Below, piece after piece: positions 1,484 through 52,041 of a stretch of 64,000 nucleotides of DNA; position 1 is the first letter of the stretch; every line of letters starts with the position of its first letter. The notes beneath the pieces are model-generated. The model did no database searches. It saw only the letters and a program-made list of their open reading frames with translations, and was not told where the DNA came from. The stretch is taken from positions 3,989,444 to 4,053,443 of the forward strand of contig NC_089863.1 in assembly GCF_036373705.1 (NCBI RefSeq). Direction: 5' to 3'. The stretch is from Amia ocellicauda (taxonomy: Eukaryota; Chordata; Actinopteri; Amiiformes; Amiidae). The translations under genes were made by a program, and so were the position numbers.

Positions 1484-4400
1484 CTGCAACACGAAGGCCC
1501 CGCAGTCGCTGTCGTTGTTCTGGCGTGCCACGTTCTAAAACACAGGGACAGCGCGGTGAGACAGCACCCCCTGCACCCCCTCACCCCCCAATACTACTAC
1601 CGCGCTTGCATCTTTACAGTCTGTCCCACCCCGGGTGCAGAGAGGGACGCCTACCATTTTGAAGAAGCCCTTCCAACCGGAGAAGAAGTCCGCCTGGTCC
1701 TTTTTGACAGCCTCCGCCTGCAGGTACTTCGCGATGTGCTGAGGAAGGGAGAGAGTGAGTGAGACAGCAGTGGGAGAGAGAGGGAGACAGACAGACAGAG
1801 GGAGAACAAGGTGAAGTAACGCATGAGAAAGACCTAGGAGTCTATGTGGAATCCTCACTTTCTCCATCCAAACAATGTGGGGAAGCAATAAAAAAGGCAA
1901 ACACAATGCTAGGGTATATTGTCAAAAGTGTAGAATTGAGAACAAGGGCAGTGATGTTCAGACTGTACAATGCACTAGTTAGAGCTCATCTGGATACTGT
2001 GGACAGTTCTGGGCTCCACACGTCAAGAAAGATATCGCTGCTCTAGAGGAGACTACGTGGGGACTTGATTCAAGTCTTCAAAATCATGAAAGGCATCGAC
2101 CACATCAAACCAGAGGAGCTTTTCCAGATCAGCAGGGACACACGCACCCGGGACACAAATGGAAATTGGGCTTCAAGGCATTCAAGACAGAAAACAGGAG
2201 ACACTTCTTCACACAGAGGCGTCACAATCTGAACAAACTCCCCAGCGATGTGGTAGAAGCTGAAAATTTGGGAACATTTAAAAATAGACCGAATAGGATC
2301 CTTGGATCACTTAGATATTAATGAACACCAAACGAGCACGATGGGGCGAATGGCTTCCTCTCGTTTGTAAACTTTAGGTTCTGATGAGATGGACGGAGCA
2401 AGCACCGGGCCGCACCTTGGGGCAGCGACGGTTGAGGGTGCGCTGCGAGTCGAAGTAGGTGATGCAGCGGCCGGGCACGTCCACACACACCAGAGACCAG
2501 TGCACCTCCAGGTGGATGGGGATGAGCAGGAGCTGCTTCTTAAAGATGTCCACCTGGAGAGACAGACCCACAGAGAGAGACACAAGCAGATCCGTAAGTC
2601 AACAGAAGGTACGCAAAAGTCATCCCTGTTGTTTCTCCCTTAAACGCACGTGAAGATCAGATGCATCATCCAGTGTGCTTGTAAATGTAAATATTGCGCT
2701 ACTATGCATACTCGTATTGTCTCATTCCACCTCCATGGTCGAGTACTGAGCTGCCCTTGAAGCCATTTGATGTAGAGAAGCCTGTAAATGTTGAATCACA
2801 ACAACGAATCACAGCCAAAAACCAACGTAGGACTTGAAATGATTTGATCTGACGATTCGACACGCATCTAGATACACCATCACCGATATGATACAGGAAA
2901 GATACAGTTCGGAAAATGAACGATTCCGGTTCGATTCGATACAATGCGATTCGGTTCAATTCAAAGTGGTTGGACTTAGAAATACATTTAAAATAATTAA
3001 ATTCACCTCAATGCTAATTAGTGAATTTGCTCATTATTAGATCCCAATACTAGCTTACACTTGTTTTCAGCAACATTATCCCATTTCCTTGTCAACTCAA
3101 CTCGTACTTCCTCGACCAATCATACACACGCAAAGCAAGACAGGCGCGTGTCTCTGATCTCTGATCTCTGAATACGTGCCGATACAGATATTTCTGTAAA
3201 AGGCCAATTTCAGTGCTCCGATATATCTGTCAGGCCCTAATCATCATCATCATCATCGTCGTCGTCGTCTTTTACCCCCCTGCCCACACACTCCCACACT
3301 CCCCCATGGCAAGAGCGCAACATACGTTTTTTGTCCAGCGCTTCACCCCGTCATAGCCTTTAGTCCTCAGCTTGTCGTAGAAGAAACTGTTGAAGAAGTG
3401 AACCTGAGAGAGAGAGAGAGAGAGAGAGAAGAGAGGGGGCGAGTGAGACAGCGTTAAGGGGAAAACTACAGGCGGTGTAAAAATAAAATCATCCCAAATT
3501 CTTCAGTCAGCCCAGAGAGAGAGAGACAGACAGACTGACTCTCCGGGTCCAAGCACGTGTCCAGCGCTCTCACCTTGTCCGGCACCGAGTCCATCACCAG
3601 GTCCCCATACATGTTCATCACCTGCGGAGAAGAGACTCTGTCAGCCAGCAAACAGGCCAATGCCAACCCACTCTCACACATGGACACAAACTAACTCTGC
3701 CACACAGGGACGTGGACACGGACACGAATGCGCGCACATACTAAACTGCCACACGGACGCAGACAAACTCTGCCACACACGTACACGGACACGCATTGGG
3801 ACGCAGACAAACTCTGCCACACGCACACGGACACACACTGGGATGCAGACAAACTCTGCCACACACGTACACGGACACGCATTGGGACGCAGACAAACTC
3901 TGCCACACACGCACACACGGGGGCGCAAACCAACTCTCTCATACACTGGCACACGCACACGGACACTGACTGAACACACCTGGTCGTTCAGCCAGTTCTG
4001 CCCGTACAGGGTGCTGAGGTCGTCCATGGTCAGCACGTGGCGTTTGTAGTTGACCCGGAAGCCGCGCACCATGGCGCTGCCCGACAGACGCTGGTAGGAC
4101 TGGATGAGGTGCTGCACCACGGCCTTCCTGCATTGAGAGGAGGGGAGTCGGGGAGTTAAGACAGGGATGCTAGGCCTCGTGTGAGCAGACGATTCAGGGC
4201 ATGGACCCCAAATATGCATTCACAGTACAGAGACAGAGAGAGACTCCACCGTCCACACAAAAAGAGAGACAGAGAGAGACTCCACCGTCCACACAAAGAG
4301 AGAGACAGAATCAGACGTCCACACAGAAATAGAAAGACAGAGAGAGCATCAGACGTCCACACACACAGACACAAACTCTCTCAGTCTCTCACACACACAC

Positions 4401-12964: not shown

Positions 12965-14004
12965 ATGCAGTGAGTGTGTGTTTCTCAGCAGTGCAGTGTG
13001 TGTCTCTCAGCAGTGCAGTGTGTGACAGTGTGTCTCTCTCTCAGCAGTGCAATGTGTGACAGTGTGTGTCCCTCTCAGCAGTGCAGTGCGTGACAGTGTG
13101 TGTCTGTCTCAGCAGTGCAGCGTGTGTGTGTCTGTCTCAGCAGTGCATTGTGTGACAGTGTGTGTCCATCTCAGCAGTGCAGTGTGTGACAGTGTGTGTC
13201 CCTCTCAGCAGTGCAGCGTGTGTGTGTATGTCTCAGCAGTGCAGCGTGTGTGTGTATGTCTCCACAGTGTAGCGTGTGACAGTGTGTGTCTGTCTCAGCG
13301 GTGCAGCATGTGACAGTGTGTGTCTGTCTCAGCGGTGCAGTGTGTGACAGTGTCTATTTCTCTCAACAGTGCAGCGTGACAGTGTGTGTCTCCCTCAGCA
13401 GTGCAGAATGTGACAGTGTGTGTCCGTCTCAGCAGTGCATTGTGTGACAGTGTGTGTCTGTCTCAGCAGTGTAGTGTGTGACAGTGTGTGTCCGTCTCCG
13501 CAGTGCAGTGTGCATTGTGTGACAGTGTGCGTCTGTCTCAGCAGTGCATTGTGTGACAGTGTGTGTCTGTCTCAGCAGTGCAGTGTGTGACAGTGTGTGT
13601 CTGTCTCAGCAGTGCATTGTGTGACAGTGTGTGTCTGTCTCAGCAGTGCAGTGTGTGACAGTGTGTGTCTGTCTCAGCAGTGCAGTGTGTGACAGTGTGT
13701 GTCTGTCTCAGCAGTGCAGTGTGTGACAGTGTGTGTCTGTCTCAGCAGTGCAGTGTGTGACAGTGTGTGTCTGTCTCAGCAGTGCATTGTGTGACAGTGT
13801 GTGTCTGTCTCAGCAGTGCATTGTGTGACAGTGTGTGTCTGTCTCAGCAGTGTAGCGTGTGACAGTGTGTGTCCCTCTCAGCAGTGCAGCGTGTGACAGT
13901 GTGTGTCTGTCTCCACAGTGCAGCGTGTGACAGTGTGCGTCTGTCTCAGCAGTGCAGTGTGTGACAGTGTGCGTCTGTCTCAGCAGTGCAGCGTGTGACA
14001 GTGT
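12965..14004. repeat. 34-bp minisatellite ending at the TNK1 start codon
   Basis: About 28-30 units with consensus CAGCAGTGCAGTGTGTGACA followed by GTGTGTGTCTGTCT. The central part (about 13600-13800) is nearly perfect with exact 34-bp spacing. The last unit runs into the first TNK1 coding exon two bases before ATG. Confidence 0.9.
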
Positions 14005-14005
14005 C

Positions 14006-22441
<8,436 letters not shown>

Positions 22442-24779: not shown

Positions 24780-26875
24780 TCAGGAGAAGACAGTGCTGCG
24801 CTGGTTCGTGTCCCCGACTTTCTCAAAGAACATGAAGTCCTGGAGAGAGAGAGAGAAGGAGGGAGGGTAGGATACAGGAAGATCAGTCCAAGGCCCACAA
24901 TAAACAAAAACAGTGTTGCAGTGTGCGTGTCCCCAGGCCCCCGCGCCGCACTCACGATGAGGAAGCAGGCCCCCATGAGCACGGCCTTCATCTTGACGTC
25001 CAAGTCCATGGGGAACTGAATGCCGAAGTTGTCGGTGTCCGTGAAGACCTCCTTGAGCAGCCCGCTCCACTGCTTACTGATGCGGCCGATGGACGCGTCC
25101 CCGTCACGGCCCTTCAGCTGAGAGAGAGAGGGAGGGAGAAAGTGAGGGAAGAGTGAAAGAATCATTTCTGGGTGATCCGCCCCCTCTCCGCACTCCTCCC
25201 CCTCCCACCTCGAAGTTGACGTCCCCGCAGCAGTTGCAGGCGAAGCAGGGCCCCTGCAGCCGCAGCAGCGTCTCCTTGTTGGCGTTCTGGATGGAGAACT
25301 TGGGCAGGAAGGGGTGCCAGTCCTGCTGCACGTAGCCAATCGTGGTGCCGGGGGGGGCCTGCACCTCCATCTGGGACACAGAGAGAGAGACACATACAGA
25401 GAAAGAGTCATTTTGAGTCAGACTTGCCACACTTCCCTCTCCCTCTCCCTCTCCCTCCCGCTCCTTCCTGCTCCCTCTCTCCCACCCGCTCATGCCGTAC
25501 CTCTTGCAGGCAGCAGGGGCACCAGCAGGTGGCGCAGCGGAAGGGGCGCACCAGGCGGATGACCTCACGGTCGGTTATGTCCTTGATCTTCATGTCAAAG
25601 CTGCGCAGCGAGCCGCAGCAGTTGCGGGTGCAGCAGTCGTTCTTCTCCTTGGCCTTGTAGATCTTCTGGCCCAGGCTGTTCTTGATCTCGTACTGGTTGT
25701 TGGTCTCAAAGCCAATGAAGACTGGAGGGAGAAGGGGAGAAAGAGAGAGAGAGAGGTCAGAGACGCCTCCTTCCCCAGATGTGCAGCTCAGCCCCCGAAG
25801 CACAAAGAGCGCGCTGTGATCGCAGCAGAGTTCGGCTCAGCCTGCCACCGGGCCGGAGGACAACCCAAACACATCTCCTCACCCCCAACGACAACAACAA
25901 CACAAACACGTCTCCTCACCACAACACAGTCTGTAGAGCTGCTTAACGTCTTACTGTTATTGATTCTGTTCTCTTGACTGTGTCTGTAAAGACTTTGGCA
26001 ACAATTGCGTAAACTTGTCATGTCAATAAAGCTCATTTTGAATTTGAAGAGAGAGAGAGTCAGTCAACTGTCTGAGAAAGACACACAACTAATACAAATA
26101 TGACATGACAGGACCCTGACCCAGGCACTTACCTTCCAGAAGCTCCACTTTCTGGTGGATGAGAATCTGATCGATCTGAGGAGGAAGCACAGACGCCCAG
26201 TCAGCAAAACGGCCCACCGGCCACTTCATCGGAGACACGAGACATGAGACACGACACAAGGAGACCTTACCTGGGCGAGATACTCCAGGCCTGGAGGGAC
26301 CCCAACGGGCGACACGGGGGTGTACCCCGCCCCCGAGCGCCCTCCCTCGTACTCAGGCACGGAGGCGGCAGGCGGGCCGGGGCTGACCGCACCAGGCTGG
26401 TAGATCACGGGGCCCTGCTGCATGGGGGGACCCTGCGGCATCGGGGGGCCCGGGTGCATGGGGGGGCCCTGCGGCATAGGGGGTCCGCCGGGGGCAGGTT
26501 GGTACCCCATGGCGAAGCCGGGGGGGGGGGCGGCCTGGCTGGGGTCTCCGTAGCCCCCCTGCGGGACGGGGTAGGGGGGCATGGCGTAGCCCCCCTGCTG
26601 GGGCATGGGGTAAGGGGGCTGGTGTGGAGACGGGTAGCCTGGAGAGCCGGAGAGAGAGAGACCAGGCAGAGAGATTAAAACACCTAATACACACACAGAG
26701 ATGTAAATCAGTGACAGGCTTGATTCACGTGCATGTTAACACTTCTTTTTTCCCTCTTTTCCTTTGTCCACCCCCTCCTCGGCTCCCGCTCCTCATTCAC
26801 ATGAGCTGGTCTAACCGGTCCGGCCAGATTTTCAGCAACAGGTATATTCCACCTGGTTACAAACGCGCGCGCGCG

Positions 26876-29440: not shown

Positions 29441-30165
29441 AATCAAAATAATTGTGCAGAATCTCTACAACAAACTCTGTACAGGAGTGTCTCTGTAGGG
29501 TGTGTGGAAACACCAAGGACAGCGGGGACCGAGTAGGGAAATGGAAGTAAAACATAATAAAGTTTAAAACGAGAGGAGGCCATTCGCCCCATCGTGCTCG
29601 TTTGGTGTCCATTAATAACTAAGTGATCAAGGATCCTATCCAGTCTGTTTTTAAATGTTCCCAAATTTTCAGCTTCAACCACATCGCTGGGGAGTTTGTT
29701 CAGATTGTGACGCCTCTCTGTGTGAAGAAGTGTCTCCTGTTTTCTGCCTTGAATGCCTTGAAGCCCAATTTCCATTTGTGTCCCGGGTGCGAGTGTCCCT
29801 GCTGATCTGGAAAAGCTCCTCTGGTTGATTTGGTCGATGCCTTTCATGATTTTGAAGACTTGGATCAAGTCCCCACGTAGTCTCCTCTGTTCCAGGGTGA
29901 AGAGGTTCAGGTCCTCAGTCTCTCAGTAGGACATTCCCTTCAGACCTGGAATAAGTCTGGTTGCTCTCCTCTGAACTGCCTCTAGAGCAGCGATATCTTT
30001 CTTGAAGTGTGGAGCCCAGAACTGTCCACAGTATCCAGATGAGCTCTAACTAGTGCATTGTACAGTCTGAACATCACTGCCCTTGTGCTCAATTCTACAC
30101 TTTTGACAATATACCCTAACATCCTGTTTGCCTTTTTTATTGCTTCCCCATATTGTTTGGATGGG
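29440..30165 (-). mobile_element. CR1-clade LINE fragment (copy b)
   Basis: Minus-strand coding remnant of the reverse-transcriptase C-terminus ([49 protein letters not shown]) plus the 3' region. About 430 bp (29440-29870) is nearly identical, in inverted orientation, to 41600-41985. Confidence 0.75.
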
Positions 30166-35404: not shown

Positions 35405-36325
35405 CCCCCTGGCCACAAACTAGATCAGGATCTAGAACAGACCACTCCCATCAGGATAGAAAAGTTTCACCATACAATAAAGGTGATCACTCAGAATAAC
35501 TGTAATTATTTGCAGCGACCCTTCCCTCTAACGGGACAAGTGGACCCAGGAAAATGCCCCCCACAGCATAACAGAGCCTCCGGACCTCCTCACTGTAGGG
35601 GTCCAGCAGTCAGGCCTGTCCCGTTCTCTTGGTGTCCCACACATGCACTCACCCACTTGTCCAGAATATGATGAAGGATGACTCATCTGACCAGATCACT
35701 TTTTCCCACATCTCTGTAGACCATTGTCTATGGTTTGTGCACCACTGAACCGTATGTGCATTTGTCTTTGTAATGAGGGCTTTATGCACTGCAGCCCTAC
35801 TATAATATCCTATGTGTAGTTCTGGACAGACTGTTCTTGCTGACACAGTCTGATCACGTCCTGCATTGACACTCTCAGTCACCTGGGAAAGAGTCTCTCT
35901 TCTGTTTTTCCTTACATATCGCAGTAATGCACGAGCATCGCGGTCATCAAATGTGCGCTTTCCACCACAATGTCCAGGCCTATTGACTGATGTCTTTCCC
36001 ATAGATCTAAATGCAGATGTAACTTTAGTCACTGTTCCTATTGAAACACTAGCCAGTTGAGCGTCTGTGTGACTGAAGCTCCTGATATTTGTGCCCCAAT
36101 AATGACCCCTCTTTTAAAGTCCCTTAGATCCTTTCCTCTTGCCATCTTGATCCAAAATCGAGGTCAGCTGGGCCTGCTCAGCTTTTGTATACATGCCACA
36201 GAGCAGGATAGGATGTTAATTGCTTAATTGTATCATGCAGTACACCTGTCTGGGCGCATCTGCATTCCTTATGTTCCTCAACTCATTTATTCAGGTTTCT
36301 CTTTTAATTTGTCACCCTCTGTATA
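35405..36325 (-). mobile_element. Truncated Tc1-like transposon with transposase remnant
   Basis: The 5' end is at about 36325 with a TA-TACAGAGGGTGACAAATT terminus. A short leader is followed by MARGKDLRDFKRGVIIG and a frame-damaged transposase, including KRTFDDRDARALLRYVRKNR and VIWSDESSFIIF (first catalytic Asp). The C-terminal half is degraded and breaks off near FYPDGSGLF. The rest of the catalytic triad and the second TIR are absent. Confidence 0.75.
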
Positions 36326-45279: not shown

Positions 45280-45408
45280 TATAAACCCAGTGGATGAGGA
45301 GACACAAGAAGACAGAGGAGACGCAGCCCAGCAAATCACTGACCCTCTCGAGCATCTCAGACCCAACACCGACAAGAGACAGAGACAGAGACCAGGACCA
45401 CAAGAACG
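45280..45408 (+). promoter_or_regulatory. TATA promoter and noncoding first exon of the osteocrin-like gene
   Basis: A canonical TATAAA (45280-45285) precedes a likely start near 45310. A noncoding exon then ends in a strong donor (GAACG|GTAAGA, boundary 45408/45409). The matching acceptor CTCTCTCCTGGGCAG abuts the ATG at 46302, so the signal-peptide exon begins exactly with the start codon. A TATA promoter fits a tissue-restricted hormone gene better than a housekeeping gene. Confidence 0.6.
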
Positions 45409-45454
45409 GTAAGATCTCTGCCACATGCCGCCGCTCGCTTCTCTGATCTTTGTG

Positions 45455-45690
45455 GGCAATGCCCTTCATGATTTTGAAGACCTGGATCAAGTCCCCACGT
45501 AGTCTCCTCTGTTCCAGGGTGAAAAGGTTCAGGTCCTCAGTCTCTCAGTAGGACATTCCCTTCAGACCTGGAATAAGTCTGGTTGCTCTCCTCTGAACTG
45601 CCTCTAGAGCAGCGATATCTTTCTTGAAGTGTGGAGCCCAGAACTGTCCACAGTATCCAGATGAGCTCTAACTAGTGCATTGTACAGATG
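45455..45690 (-). mobile_element. CR1-clade LINE fragment in intron 1 of the osteocrin-like gene
   Basis: Shares ATGATTTTGAAGACCTGGAT through CATTGTACAG with the copy at 29.84-30.07 kb. It begins about 45 bp after the noncoding exon. Confidence 0.75.
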
Positions 45691-46301: not shown

Positions 46302-47599
46302 ATGTTGAGCTCCAGATGTGCGTTGCCCGCACTGGCCCTTTGTGTACTCCTGGAGGAGGTGTCTGCGTTCCTGGTGCCGCTCAGAGCGAGACGGGTGAGA
46401 GTGCAGCCACACACACACATATCATGATAGCATTAGTATGTGAGTGTGTTGTTAAAAGGTCATAACCCCTAGACAGCTGTTTCACCCCTCGTGTCTTTTT
46501 GAACATCTGCTAAGAAATTATGATTAATAATAACAATAATCATACTAATCCCTGCCCCCTCCACCCTGCTCTTCTCCTCAGGACGTCTGGCAGGACTCTG
46601 ACCTGTCCCTCCCTCTGCCTGAGTCCTCCGACCCCGAGTTCCTGTGGCCGCTGGTGGCTGAAGACACGACCAGCGAGAGAGGGGGCCGCCACGCCCGTCC
46701 TTCCCCCTTCAACGCCCCTCTAGAGAGGATCTCGGGGAGACACGGCGCCCCTGCCAGGAAGAGCAAGAACAAGAGGTGAGGAGACACATAGAGAGATGGA
46801 GATGGGGGGAGTGAGATAGAGAGAGAGAGAGGAGAAAAAGTTTGTCTGTCTGTCTGTCTGTCTTGGGTCTCTATCAGCCTTACCTCTCCCCTCCCTCTCA
46901 ATCCTTCCTTCTGTCTGAGGACGAAAGGCAGGTAATCACTCATCCCCTCTCCCTCTCTCTCTCTACAGGAAACGCATAACTGCACCCTTAGACACCATCG
47001 GCAGCTCCCTGTTCTCCAATCACAGGAGCCGGAAGGTAAGGATGGCGGGGCCAAACACTTTCAGCCAATCGGGTGTCGTAGCGGCGCTGAAGACAGTTGT
47101 ACAATAACGATCGTATTTCTACAGGACTTTAAGCCTCTGTACAAACAATAATACAGTTTTCTCCAATGTACAACAATTTTACAAGGTAATTACAGTAGAA
47201 AAATCGAATCTTGGAGCGCAGCCAGGAATCGACCAATCGTAACTGTGTCCTTGTGGTGCAGAATTTTGACCTTAAGCAGCATTGTAGGCTTGGAGACAGA
47301 CCACCAATCAGAAATGAGCTTTTTAACCACATGGTCCAACCTCACCCATGCTGTGCATTTCGAGGATGGCCAGATATTGTGATGCCCAGATATTGAAAAC
47401 CGCACCAACACAGACACTGATCTTTAATTGCAGTCTAGAAGACAGTGTTCAACACACACAATCATTTTTAAGGTCTGAATATTGAAATTTAGGTGTGTGT
47501 GGGTGTAGAGTGTGTCTGTGCTCCCTTTTATTAATCCTGTATCTCTCTGCCCCACCCCAACAGGAGAACCCCGAGGACTGGGAGTACTACACAGACTGA
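46302..47599 (+). CDS. Osteocrin/musclin-like secreted peptide precursor
   Basis: Four coding exons: 46302-46394, 46582-46775, 46969-47035 and 47564-47599. They give 129 aa; human osteocrin is 133 aa. The start MLSSRCALPALALCVLLEEVSA looks like a cleavable signal peptide. Two natriuretic-peptide-like motifs lie in the C-terminal half: FNAPLERISG (74-83) and ITAPLDTIGSSLFSN (99-113). They parallel the two osteocrin motifs (F-G-S-P-L-D-R-L-S and F-G-I-P-M-D-R-I-G), have no ring cysteines and are separated by a basic linker (KSKNKRKR, 91-98). Osteocrin binds the clearance receptor NPR3 and so raises local natriuretic-peptide signalling. Unlike osteocrin, this protein continues past RSRK (115-118) into an acidic tail ENPEDWEYYTD, a possible tyrosine-sulfation site. 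Motif 2 has Thr where natriuretic peptides usually have Arg (D-R-I). Exon structure and signals are clear. Paralogy to osteocrin is inferred from short motifs. Confidence 0.72.
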
Positions 47600-47879: not shown

Positions 47880-47894
47880 AATAAACACAATAAA
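47880..47894 (+). terminator. Polyadenylation signals of the osteocrin-like gene
   Basis: Two closely spaced AATAAA hexamers about 285 bp after the stop at 47599. The 3' end faces the PHF23 3' end about 150 bp away (tail to tail). Confidence 0.65.
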
Positions 47895-49024: not shown

Positions 49025-50138
49025 TCAGGGGTCCTTCTTGTGGCCCGAGCGGCGCTGGTCCTGCCGAGAGTCCCTGCACTTGTGGCAGTAGAAGATGTCG
49101 GGCACGTTGGACTTCTTGATCTTGGCGCAAGAAAGGTGCACCCACACGCCACACTGGTTGCACTCGATCATGGGCCGTCCGGCGAAGGGCTTCCCGCAGT
49201 AACACGTCACCAGGTCCCACGAGTCGTCACCTGCGGGGGGAGAGAGCATGTCAGGTATGTGGCAGAGGTACAAATGTCTCTGCACAACCAGACACCCACC
49301 CACACAGACACCCACTCGCACCCTCACAGACCCTCAGATACACAGACACCCTGACAGGTGCATGCTGGGTACTACTGTCCTGCTCACCTGACTCCACCAT
49401 GATGTCCTCGTCGGCGATCCATGTCTCCCCTTCACTGGAGCTGAGGTCTGCCTCCCGCGTTGACTCCTCTCCCAGCGCGTCCGCCAGTGCCTCCCCCGCG
49501 TCCTGACCAGTGCGCAGCTCCGCCGGACCCTCCCCTACCGGCCCGCGGCCCTCGGCCCCCCGGTGGGTGGGGCCGCCCTCAGAGTCTGTGGTCTCGCTCT
49601 GGGCGGAGCTCTTGAGCTTCTTCAGCGCCTTGGTGGGCTTGGGGTTCTTGCTGCGCTTAATGCGGGCCCTCTTCTCCTCGCGACCGGCCAGAGACAACTT
49701 CTTCAGTTTCTTCTCCTTCTTGCGCTCGACCCGCGGGCCCCCAGGGGCTGGGCCCTCGAACAGAGAGTCCTTGAGGCGCATCTTGTCCAGCAGGGAACTG
49801 TCAGAGTGCATGCGGCGCAGGCTCTTGCCCTTGGAAGCGCGGGCCTTGCGCACAAATGTCTGGATGGTGTGCAGGTCGGAACGGGCGTCTGGCCAGTCAG
49901 CACCACCACCACTGCCACCACCGCCCTCCCCCGAGGCCCCCGAGACGCTGTGGGGGGAACTGGAAGAGGCCGGGGACCACTGGGGCTCCTGGAGAGCGGG
50001 AGGAGAGAGAAAAATAGGATAATTAAACTTATTGTTCTTAAACTGTGATAGAGACCCAGAGAGCACACGTGTGTGTGTGAGTCTGCGAGACACCAAGAGG
50101 GCACATGTGTGTGTGTGTGTGTGAGAGACACCAAGAGG

Positions 50139-50189
<51 letters not shown>

Positions 50190-52041
50190 TGAGGCACACT
50201 GATAGGGTGCGATTCTGAGATAGCGAGACACACACACTCACCTCCTTGCTGGCAGGGATATAGCCCGCATAGGCCAGGACAAAGCTGCAGAACTTGTTGA
50301 AGTCTTCCACGGTACGCTTTCTCCTCTCTGGAGGCTGAAACACAGAGGAGGCACGGTGAGCATGCACAGAACGAGGGGCCCCGGGTGAGGCCCCTGCCTT
50401 GCCCCACAGCTCCCTGGCACTCTTATAAACACATACATTAAACAGTCTGCAAATCATTCCTGAGTCAGTCGCACTCATTCAATAATGTCCCTTTACAAAC
50501 ACTAAACACTTTTTTTTTTTTTTTTTATTCGTATACATTTGTTTAAACTGTCGCTTCTCTCGCAGGGCGGGCGCAGAGGGGACCTTGTCACGGGACGGCG
50601 TGGCTCTCACGTTTAGCAGTCGCTCATCCCTGGGCAGGGGAAAACAAAGCGGAGGAAAGACTGACACACAGAGCCAAAGAAACACACGAGCCCTCGAATC
50701 CCAGGCAGCCATGACACGGCCGGGAGGCGCACAGCGGAGGACTTCACCAGCCGGATGGTCTGGCGACAGTGTCCGAGAGAGGGAGGCCGGGTGGTAGAGA
50801 GTTCAAGATGCCTGTTAATGCCTAACCCACCCCTCCCCCAGGCACCAGCCCCGGCACAGCCCCCCCACCCAACTGCCAAGTCACTACACTGTGTTAGGTG
50901 TATACAAGACCCTTGGACAGTCAGTGAATCAGCCTGCATGGACATCTTCAGACCCAGTTTAATCGGTGGGGATTTTAATTGATGCCCACCCACCCCCACA
51001 CATTATTCCACCGATTAATACCAACCACAACAGACAATAGTAAAGGAAAGTTTGACACGACCACCAACCGCCGCCTACGGAGGCTCAGAGGCGCTATAAT
51101 TCAATGTAAGGCAACAGGCAGACTGGGGGTCACATGCTACCAACAGAGCTGTCCGCGGTAACATACACAGTAGTCATAATTTATAATCAAAACACTTACC
51201 AGAGGCTCCGATTTGCATTTCAGCAGGGTATCTGTTTTCAGAGAGAGAGAGATAAAAGGAGAGATTAACTTCGGTTCCTCTTTTTACAACGAAGCGGCGG
51301 TTCGGACGGGGGCGCCGCTCTCTCGGACGCCGTGGCAGCGGGTCTCTCGGTCGGTGTGGGTTCAGGGTTTGTCCGCCGAGCCCTTTCCACAGCCTAACCT
51401 CACCCGACCCCCGTCTCTGTCCGTGTATATCTACCCTCCCGTCGGTTAACAGGCTGGCTTATAAAGGACAGGGGAGAGAGAAAGAGAGAGGGCGCTTTTG
51501 GCTCCTGAGCACCGACACGGTGTCGCTGGGCTCCCGGTAGATCACAGCCACCAGCCCGCCAGTGTGGTCGGGAGATACGCTGGCCAGCCCTGCACCATCG
51601 CCCGGCTCAACACACGGGCGGACAGAGGGACATTTGCGCACTTTGTCCCGGGGTGTCGAGGGTTTATTTCTCCTCTCTCTCGCTACCGACGATGCCGAGA
51701 GAAAGTGCCATCTTTTTTGCTCGGCTGAGTGGCAACCAGGCCTCCCCCTCCGGAGCCCCACCACCCCGCGATAAAACACCCACCCGACACCAAGCGCTGG
51801 ACATCAGTGGATTAAATCAACTTTTCCACTGTTAACCCGGCCGGGAGACTTTTCCCCCCCGGAGGTTTTGCATCCTTTACCCCGCACGGACGCAATCCCA
51901 GAGCCGCGGCCATGCCTGCACCCGAGTCCAGCCGCCACCCGGCACTCACTTCCCCCCGCAAAAAACAGACACTTCTCTGGGGTTTTTCGGCGGAACAGAC
52001 CCGGTCATCGTACCTTTATGCTCGGCCATGATGTCGAGCAT
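49025..52041 (-). CDS. phf23: PHF23, PHD-finger H3K4me3 reader
   Basis: Five coding exons on the minus strand: 52041-52014, 51231-51200, 50334-50242, 49988-49388 and 49230-49025. They encode 319 aa (human 403). PHF23 binds H3K4me3 and is a negative regulator of autophagy through LRSAM1. The N-terminus MLDIMAEHK is followed by the family block [20 protein letters not shown] (21-40). A Lys/Arg-rich middle follows, then a Ser/Glu/Asp-rich stretch ending DEDIMVESG. The C-terminal PHD finger has a complete C4HC3 ligand set: Cys261, 263, 275, 278, His283, Cys286, 300 and 303, with Trp281 in the aromatic cage region. The protein ends GHKKDP. The central region is shorter than in mammals. The only paralogue, PHF13, is less likely given the synteny with ELP5 and CTDNEP1. 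Confidence 0.93.
50080..50195. repeat. GT microsatellite with CCAAGAGGGCAC units in PHF23 intron 3
   Basis: Three short units with GAGACACCAAGAGGGCAC separated by GT runs, then about 22 GT dinucleotides. Confidence 0.75.

Follow-up and report, generated by a model that had tools for sequence, protein, structure and literature searches.

At 4.036 Mb on chromosome C20 of the 988-Mb genome of the bowfin Amia ocellicauda lies a candidate gene with four coding exons, within the 64,000-nucleotide stretch analyzed here (C20:3989444-4053443, hereafter the window). We name the gene OSTN2. Its spliced exons give 390 bases, encoding 129 amino acids and a stop codon (third-position GC, 78%); all three coding introns are GT/AG with good consensus, and the reading frame is intact. 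A preliminary description of this DNA had proposed four in-frame coding exons for a 129-amino-acid secreted precursor, which splicing of 46302-47599 (forward strand) confirmed, and the elements that it listed (FNAPLERISG, KSKNKRKR, ITAPLDTIGSSLFSN, RSRK, and an acidic tail with two tyrosines) are all present in the translation. Because the ATG abuts a splice acceptor, a 5' untranslated exon probably lies upstream, ending at 45408 (Table 1). The first intron holds a repeat copy (45453-45687) that shares 98% identity with 29831-30065 and has partial copies at 1963-2104; its frames resemble what we take to be the tail of a LINE reverse transcriptase, and it is probably a recent insertion. A genome-wide search for further copies of OSTN2 returned seven matches, three in OSTN2 itself and four elsewhere, the latter at E values of at least 1.

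Table 1. Features of the OSTN2 locus and its neighbors, in window coordinates
Feature	Position	Strand	Basis or remark
TNK-type kinase exons (SAM_TNK, tyrosine kinase)	13931..15386	+	Pfam
Phospholipid scramblase exons	25107..25836	-	Pfam
TATA box (TATAAA), probable promoter of OSTN2	45280..45285	+	Sequence; inference
Probable 5' untranslated exon, donor ACG/GTAAGA	45310..45408	+	Start approximate, inferred from TATA box
OSTN2 exon A: ATG abutting acceptor; closes in phase 0	46302..46394	+	
OSTN2 signal peptide, end inferred	46302-46367	+	Within exon A
OSTN2 RARR convertase site (predicted)	46383-46394	+	3' end of exon A
OSTN2 exon B: propeptide, motif 1, start of linker; closes in phase 2 within Arg codon AG/G	46582..46775	+	
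OSTN2 motif 1, FNAPLERISG	46708-46737	+	In exon B
OSTN2 exon C: end of KSKNKRKR, motif 2, RSRK	46969..47035	+	
OSTN2 motif 2, ITAPLDTIGSSLFSN	46976-47020	+	In exon C
OSTN2 RSRK	47024-47035	+	3' end of exon C
OSTN2 exon D: acidic tail ENPEDWEYYTD and stop	47564..47599	+	No counterpart in OSTN
Two polyadenylation signals AATAAA (47880, 47889)	47880..47894	+	Sequence
PHD-finger gene	49025..50237	-	PHD finger found in last exon (49025-49231)

The neighboring genes presumably correspond to TNK1, PLSCR3, and PHF23, the first two being named after human gene order; the frame of the PHD-finger gene at 49254-50237 had no Pfam match. Also in the window are remnants of Tc1/mariner-type transposases at 20651-21217 and 35652-36113 (reverse strand; Pfam DDE_3 and HTH_Tnp_Tc3_2) and, beside the TNK gene, a minisatellite (17308-19191) whose short-repeat frames repeatedly read CYT and LSQHCA by eye.

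In the predicted protein, motif 1 occupies residues 74 to 83 and motif 2 residues 99 to 113, with the cores P-L-E-R-I and P-L-D-T-I, neither of which follows the osteocrin pattern P-x-D-R-[IL]. Cysteines are found at residues 6 and 14 only, both in the signal peptide, with none after residue 14, so the mature part has no disulfide ring.

Across 24,736 Pfam models (E up to 10), the sole match of OSTN2 was the Musclin/osteocrin family (PF11037; E 0.28), in register with profile positions 84 to 131 and at 11.5 bits, below the curated cut-off of 21; no unrelated secreted family gave a better match. A profile of 97 osteocrins (125 to 136 amino acids, among 120 listed of 390 found) scored the OSTN2 protein at 15.0 bits (E 9.8e-7 as a single comparison). 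None of 40,000 shuffled sequences reached that score, the best having 10.7 bits (20,000 shuffled within exons and 20,000 as a whole, of which 15,634 and 14,905 were given a reported score). Likewise, 4,332 open frames of at least 30 residues from the window and the fetched loci (L001 to L005 excluded) held none at 12 bits, and the best of them, at 8.6 bits, was OSTN2's own exon C frame. When OSTN2 was combined with a moray protein, P0121 (described below), the two-row profile matched an alignment of 23 osteocrins across both motifs (E 1.1e-6; probability, 91%). Queried against PDB sequences, the OSTN2 protein and OSTN yielded no match and two matches at chance level.

The ordinary osteocrin gene of bowfin, OSTN, was located by a genome search with the Pfam Musclin model, whose three matches were its exons (C7:42112510-42117110, reverse strand); spliced, these encode 133 amino acids identical to the database osteocrin of A. 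ocellicauda (P0001). The exon layout of the two genes is a test of their homology that is independent of profile similarity. In both, the ATG follows an acceptor, coding intron 1 is in phase 0 and intron 2 in phase 2, and intron 2 splits an Arg codon (AG/G) between the motifs, 22 residues after the opening Phe of motif 1 in OSTN2 versus 19 in bowfin OSTN. The preliminary description had given the motifs the order and the spacing of those of osteocrin; the order holds, but the spacing is four residues shorter (P77-P102 in OSTN2 versus P90-P119). Identity between OSTN2 and bowfin OSTN is 24 to 34%, depending on the alignment, and most of the propeptide is left unaligned. In bowfin, gar, Albula, and eel, ordinary OSTN (P0001, P0002, P0044, and P0064) has no Phe-Gly opening motif 2, a pair that is present in sturgeon, coelacanth, and most of the listed tetrapod OSTN sequences. 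The database records labeled "osteocrin-like" from sturgeon (P0003) and paddlefish (P0004) are ordinary OSTN.

The low identity, the largely unaligned propeptide, and a Pfam score below the cut-off for OSTN2 alone are what would be expected of an unrelated secreted protein that had come by osteocrin-like motifs through chance or convergence. We regard this as very improbable, given that no shuffled sequence reached the observed score, that intron positions, phases, and the split codon match those of OSTN, and that the moray protein exceeds the Musclin family cut-off. From profile statistics and intron layout together, OSTN2 and OSTN are judged to share common ancestry.

A protein search with OSTN2 alone returned 25 candidates, none at an E value of 10 or below and none an Amia protein like OSTN2; an identical annotated Amia protein of 71 to 226 amino acids would be expected to have been found. 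The only relative of OSTN2 found was P0121, a hypothetical protein of Gymnothorax javanicus (GJAV_G00197630), the single hit among four candidates from a query of five motif rows, four of which were invented variants. Since the search with OSTN2 alone had missed P0121, missing hits elsewhere mean little. Against the unaltered OSTN2 protein, P0121 aligned over its full length with 60 of 134 aligned positions identical (45%; BLASTP E 2e-22 as a single comparison). It passes the Pfam Musclin cut-off (21.3 versus 21) and matches the 97-osteocrin profile at E 8.7e-9 (single comparison).

In their N-terminal parts, the two proteins have in common a signal peptide ending in S-A, R-x-R-R-D followed by W, and A-P-L-E-R, and in their C-terminal parts R-K-S-K-x-K-R-K-R, P-L-D-x-I-G-S-S-L-x-S-N-H-R, and W-E-Y-Y-T; both motifs of the preliminary description are thus conserved in another fish. 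The motif 2 region of P0121 reads KRKRVTVPLDMIGSSLLSNHRTKK, with Met in the core position where OSTN2 has Thr, so that the replacement of Arg in the D-R-I core, noted earlier for bowfin, is borne out. The C-terminal tail, which had been called new, is indeed encoded by an exon that has no counterpart in OSTN, and its W-E-Y-Y-T is kept in P0121, whose tail reads DEAEDSWEYYTE (12 residues versus 11 in OSTN2, with Ser preceding Trp). The similarity continues on the far side of a predicted splice junction, which supports exon D; at 45% identity, tail included, the gene model and the tail both appear to be genuine and conserved. A pseudogene or a chance run of open frames, which would account for the lack of an annotated Amia protein like OSTN2 in the protein search, is extremely improbable, as the frame and splice sites are intact and conservation with the moray extends to the last exon. 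Three-frame reading of 20 kb near OSTN on its own strand (W.YY, EYYT, and similar patterns) found no tail-like exon, and deriving exon D from a 3' untranslated exon is therefore speculation.

Genes of the p53 family lie on C20 at 4.88 Mb (best PDB match, p53), on C7 at 31.63 Mb (p63), and on C24 at 21.37 Mb (p73). OSTN2 is 0.84 Mb from TP53 on C20, and OSTN is on the chromosome of TP63, C7. SAM_TNK has two matches in the whole genome, one in the window and one on C7 at 27.42 Mb. Of 11 scramblase exon matches, the 3 on C20 all fall in the window and another 6 lie at 25.49-25.50 Mb on C7; the remaining 2, on C6, count against the pairing, as they involve a further chromosome. The TP53/TP63, TNK, and scramblase places thus put OSTN2 in a block that pairs with the OSTN block. 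In human, 17p13 and 3q26-29 form a pair of blocks. Natriuretic peptide genes were found on C1, C7, C20, and C24 (seven of nine matches above the cut-off), and four of them lie within 11 kb on C24, about 0.4 Mb from TP73.

A urotensin pairing of the blocks was considered and dropped. The urotensin model PF02083 had 11 matches in the genome and the pattern CFWKYC had 13, versus 1 for a reversed-pattern control; among the 7 of these 13 places that were read, the right frame was found only in two plus-strand loci, L042 and L047. At L042 (C7:31769373, about 0.14 Mb from TP63), a urotensin-related ACFWKYCV is followed by a stop codon. At L047 (C20, 16.66 Mb), the frame continues beyond the motif and the match looks like chance, leaving no clear urotensin on C20 among the seven places read. 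An open frame on the reverse strand of the window (3677-4219), with no Pfam match in that piece, resembles SENP3/SENP5 by eye; if this assumption of ours is right, SENP3/SENP5 would be another pair between the blocks.

The tree comprised 24 rows (OSTN2, P0121, and 22 OSTN rows). OSTN2 and P0121 formed one clade (100/100) against all 22 OSTN rows. A duplication in bowfin only, with OSTN2 joined to Amia OSTN, was rejected (p-AU 2e-5), as was a grouping of P0121 with two elopomorph OSTN rows (p-AU 1e-4). An earlier tree built without the moray protein had left the placement unresolved (OSTN2 end branch, 5.26; OSTN2 with Amia OSTN, p-AU 0.29). The best unconstrained tree set the pair beside neopterygian OSTN (six-row split, 100/97), and a tree constrained to the early vertebrate (2R) placement, in which seven ray-finned OSTN rows were held apart from the pair, was 1.4 log units worse (p-AU 0.26). 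As the tree neither requires nor rejects 2R, that dating rests on synteny.

The position in the best tree is that expected had osteocrin been copied on the neopterygian stem, landed by chance in the TP53 block, and diverged fast, and holostean and elopomorph OSTN rows likewise have no F-G before motif 2. Yet a chance landing near TNK and scramblase genes with paralogues on the OSTN chromosome would be an unlikely coincidence, the 2R placement costs just the 1.4 log units given above, and long branches weaken the placement; we hold such a younger duplication to be improbable. OSTN2 is instead likely to be an ohnologue of osteocrin from the 2R duplications. The bowfin is described as a holostean without the teleost duplication (PMC8423624). 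The earlier suggestion of an ancient osteocrin paralogue gains support from the introns, the profile, the teleost relative, the tree clade, and the paired block. Taken together, it is highly probable, on this comparative evidence, that OSTN2 is a real, conserved gene and an ancient paralogue of osteocrin encoding a processed secreted peptide. On the features compared, OSTN2 is assigned to a sister subfamily of osteocrin, outside osteocrin proper.

That the product is a processed secreted peptide is predicted with strong confidence. After signal cleavage, a proprotein convertase would cut at RARR/D, KRKR/I, and R-x-[RK]-K, releasing a peptide of about 60 residues with motif 1 (F-x-A-P-L-E-R), a short motif 2 peptide (P-L-D-[T/M]-I-G-S-S-L-x-S-N-H-R), and a third, acidic peptide containing W-E-Y-Y-T. 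An acidic setting such as that of the tail is typical of tyrosine sulfation, and its tyrosines could be sulfated.

Osteocrin is reported to carry tandem natriuretic-like sequences parted by basic residues (PMC10253422) and to bind the clearance receptor NPR-C (NPR3), not NPR-A or NPR-B, so that C-type natriuretic peptide (CNP) is spared (PMC10253422; PMC9578707). By analogy, OSTN2 would occupy NPR3 and spare CNP as osteocrin does, and NPR3 is its putative receptor, a proposal to which we give close to an even chance. D-R patterns occur in at least 115 (motif 1) and at least 117 (motif 2) of the 120 listed osteocrins (of 390 found), which makes the loss from motif 2 of OSTN2 unusual. The loss of this Arg argues against osteocrin-like binding of NPR3 through motif 2, and motif 1 is thus the likelier element; if binding has been kept, motif 1 would make the contact. 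Further partners have been described for osteocrin, namely PTPRU (PMC9578707) and, for osteocrin-derived peptides, GPR1 and GPR68 (PMC6838683), so other receptors are possible for OSTN2 as well.

OSTN2 might be homologous to osteocrin and still stand outside the natriuretic system, having abandoned NPR3, with the acidic C-terminal peptide as the hormone of another receptor. The motif 2 Arg is replaced in both species (by Thr and Met) and the tail W-E-Y-Y-T is identical in both; A-P-L-E-R and P-L-D-x-I-G are, on the other side, also kept in both, which suggests that an old receptor contact is conserved. We consider this departure from NPR3 plausible, though on the whole we lean away from it. 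A broader scenario, offered tentatively and somewhat unlikely in its entirety, is that early jawed vertebrates possessed a pair of osteocrins, one of which, kept at least in bowfin and a moray, became a three-peptide prohormone without the motif 2 Arg and was itself lost in mammals, and that its new Y-Y tail (perhaps from a former 3' untranslated exon and possibly sulfated) signals through a receptor new to the family.

A cichlid prohormone survey gives osteocrin as one gene, OSTN (PMC4992253), and among the matches listed from the open-licence literature, titles and abstract openings yielded no paper on a second osteocrin. A conserved second osteocrin would mean that the natriuretic system, which governs bone growth and heart function, has a further, undescribed hormone. 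It would show how ligands of the clearance receptor diversified, and its role would be testable in the fishes that kept the gene.

Compared with osteocrin/musclin (PF11037), a hormone of bone and muscle, OSTN2 is likewise a secreted precursor of similar length, with a cysteine-free mature part and two motifs around a basic linker. It differs in having RARR at the end of exon A and Glu for Asp in motif 1 (as in the moray), and in motif 2 Arg gives way to Thr in OSTN2 or Met in the moray. Neither OSTN2 nor P0121 has the propeptide block S-L-E-N-D-V-I-E-T-K-x-K-R of osteocrin, with the K-x-K-R cut site that precedes motif 1. Whereas osteocrin ends at an R-G terminus, OSTN2 adds an exon for the acidic Y-Y tail. 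The D-R-I core resembles the ring of the natriuretic peptides (ANP, BNP, and CNP; PF00212). Unlike these, OSTN2 has no disulfide ring and no PF00212 match (Pfam search, E up to 10). Two of the chromosomes that carry natriuretic peptide genes, C7 and C20, also hold OSTN and OSTN2, and OSTN2 would thereby tie the duplication of osteocrin to chromosomes bearing natriuretic peptide genes.
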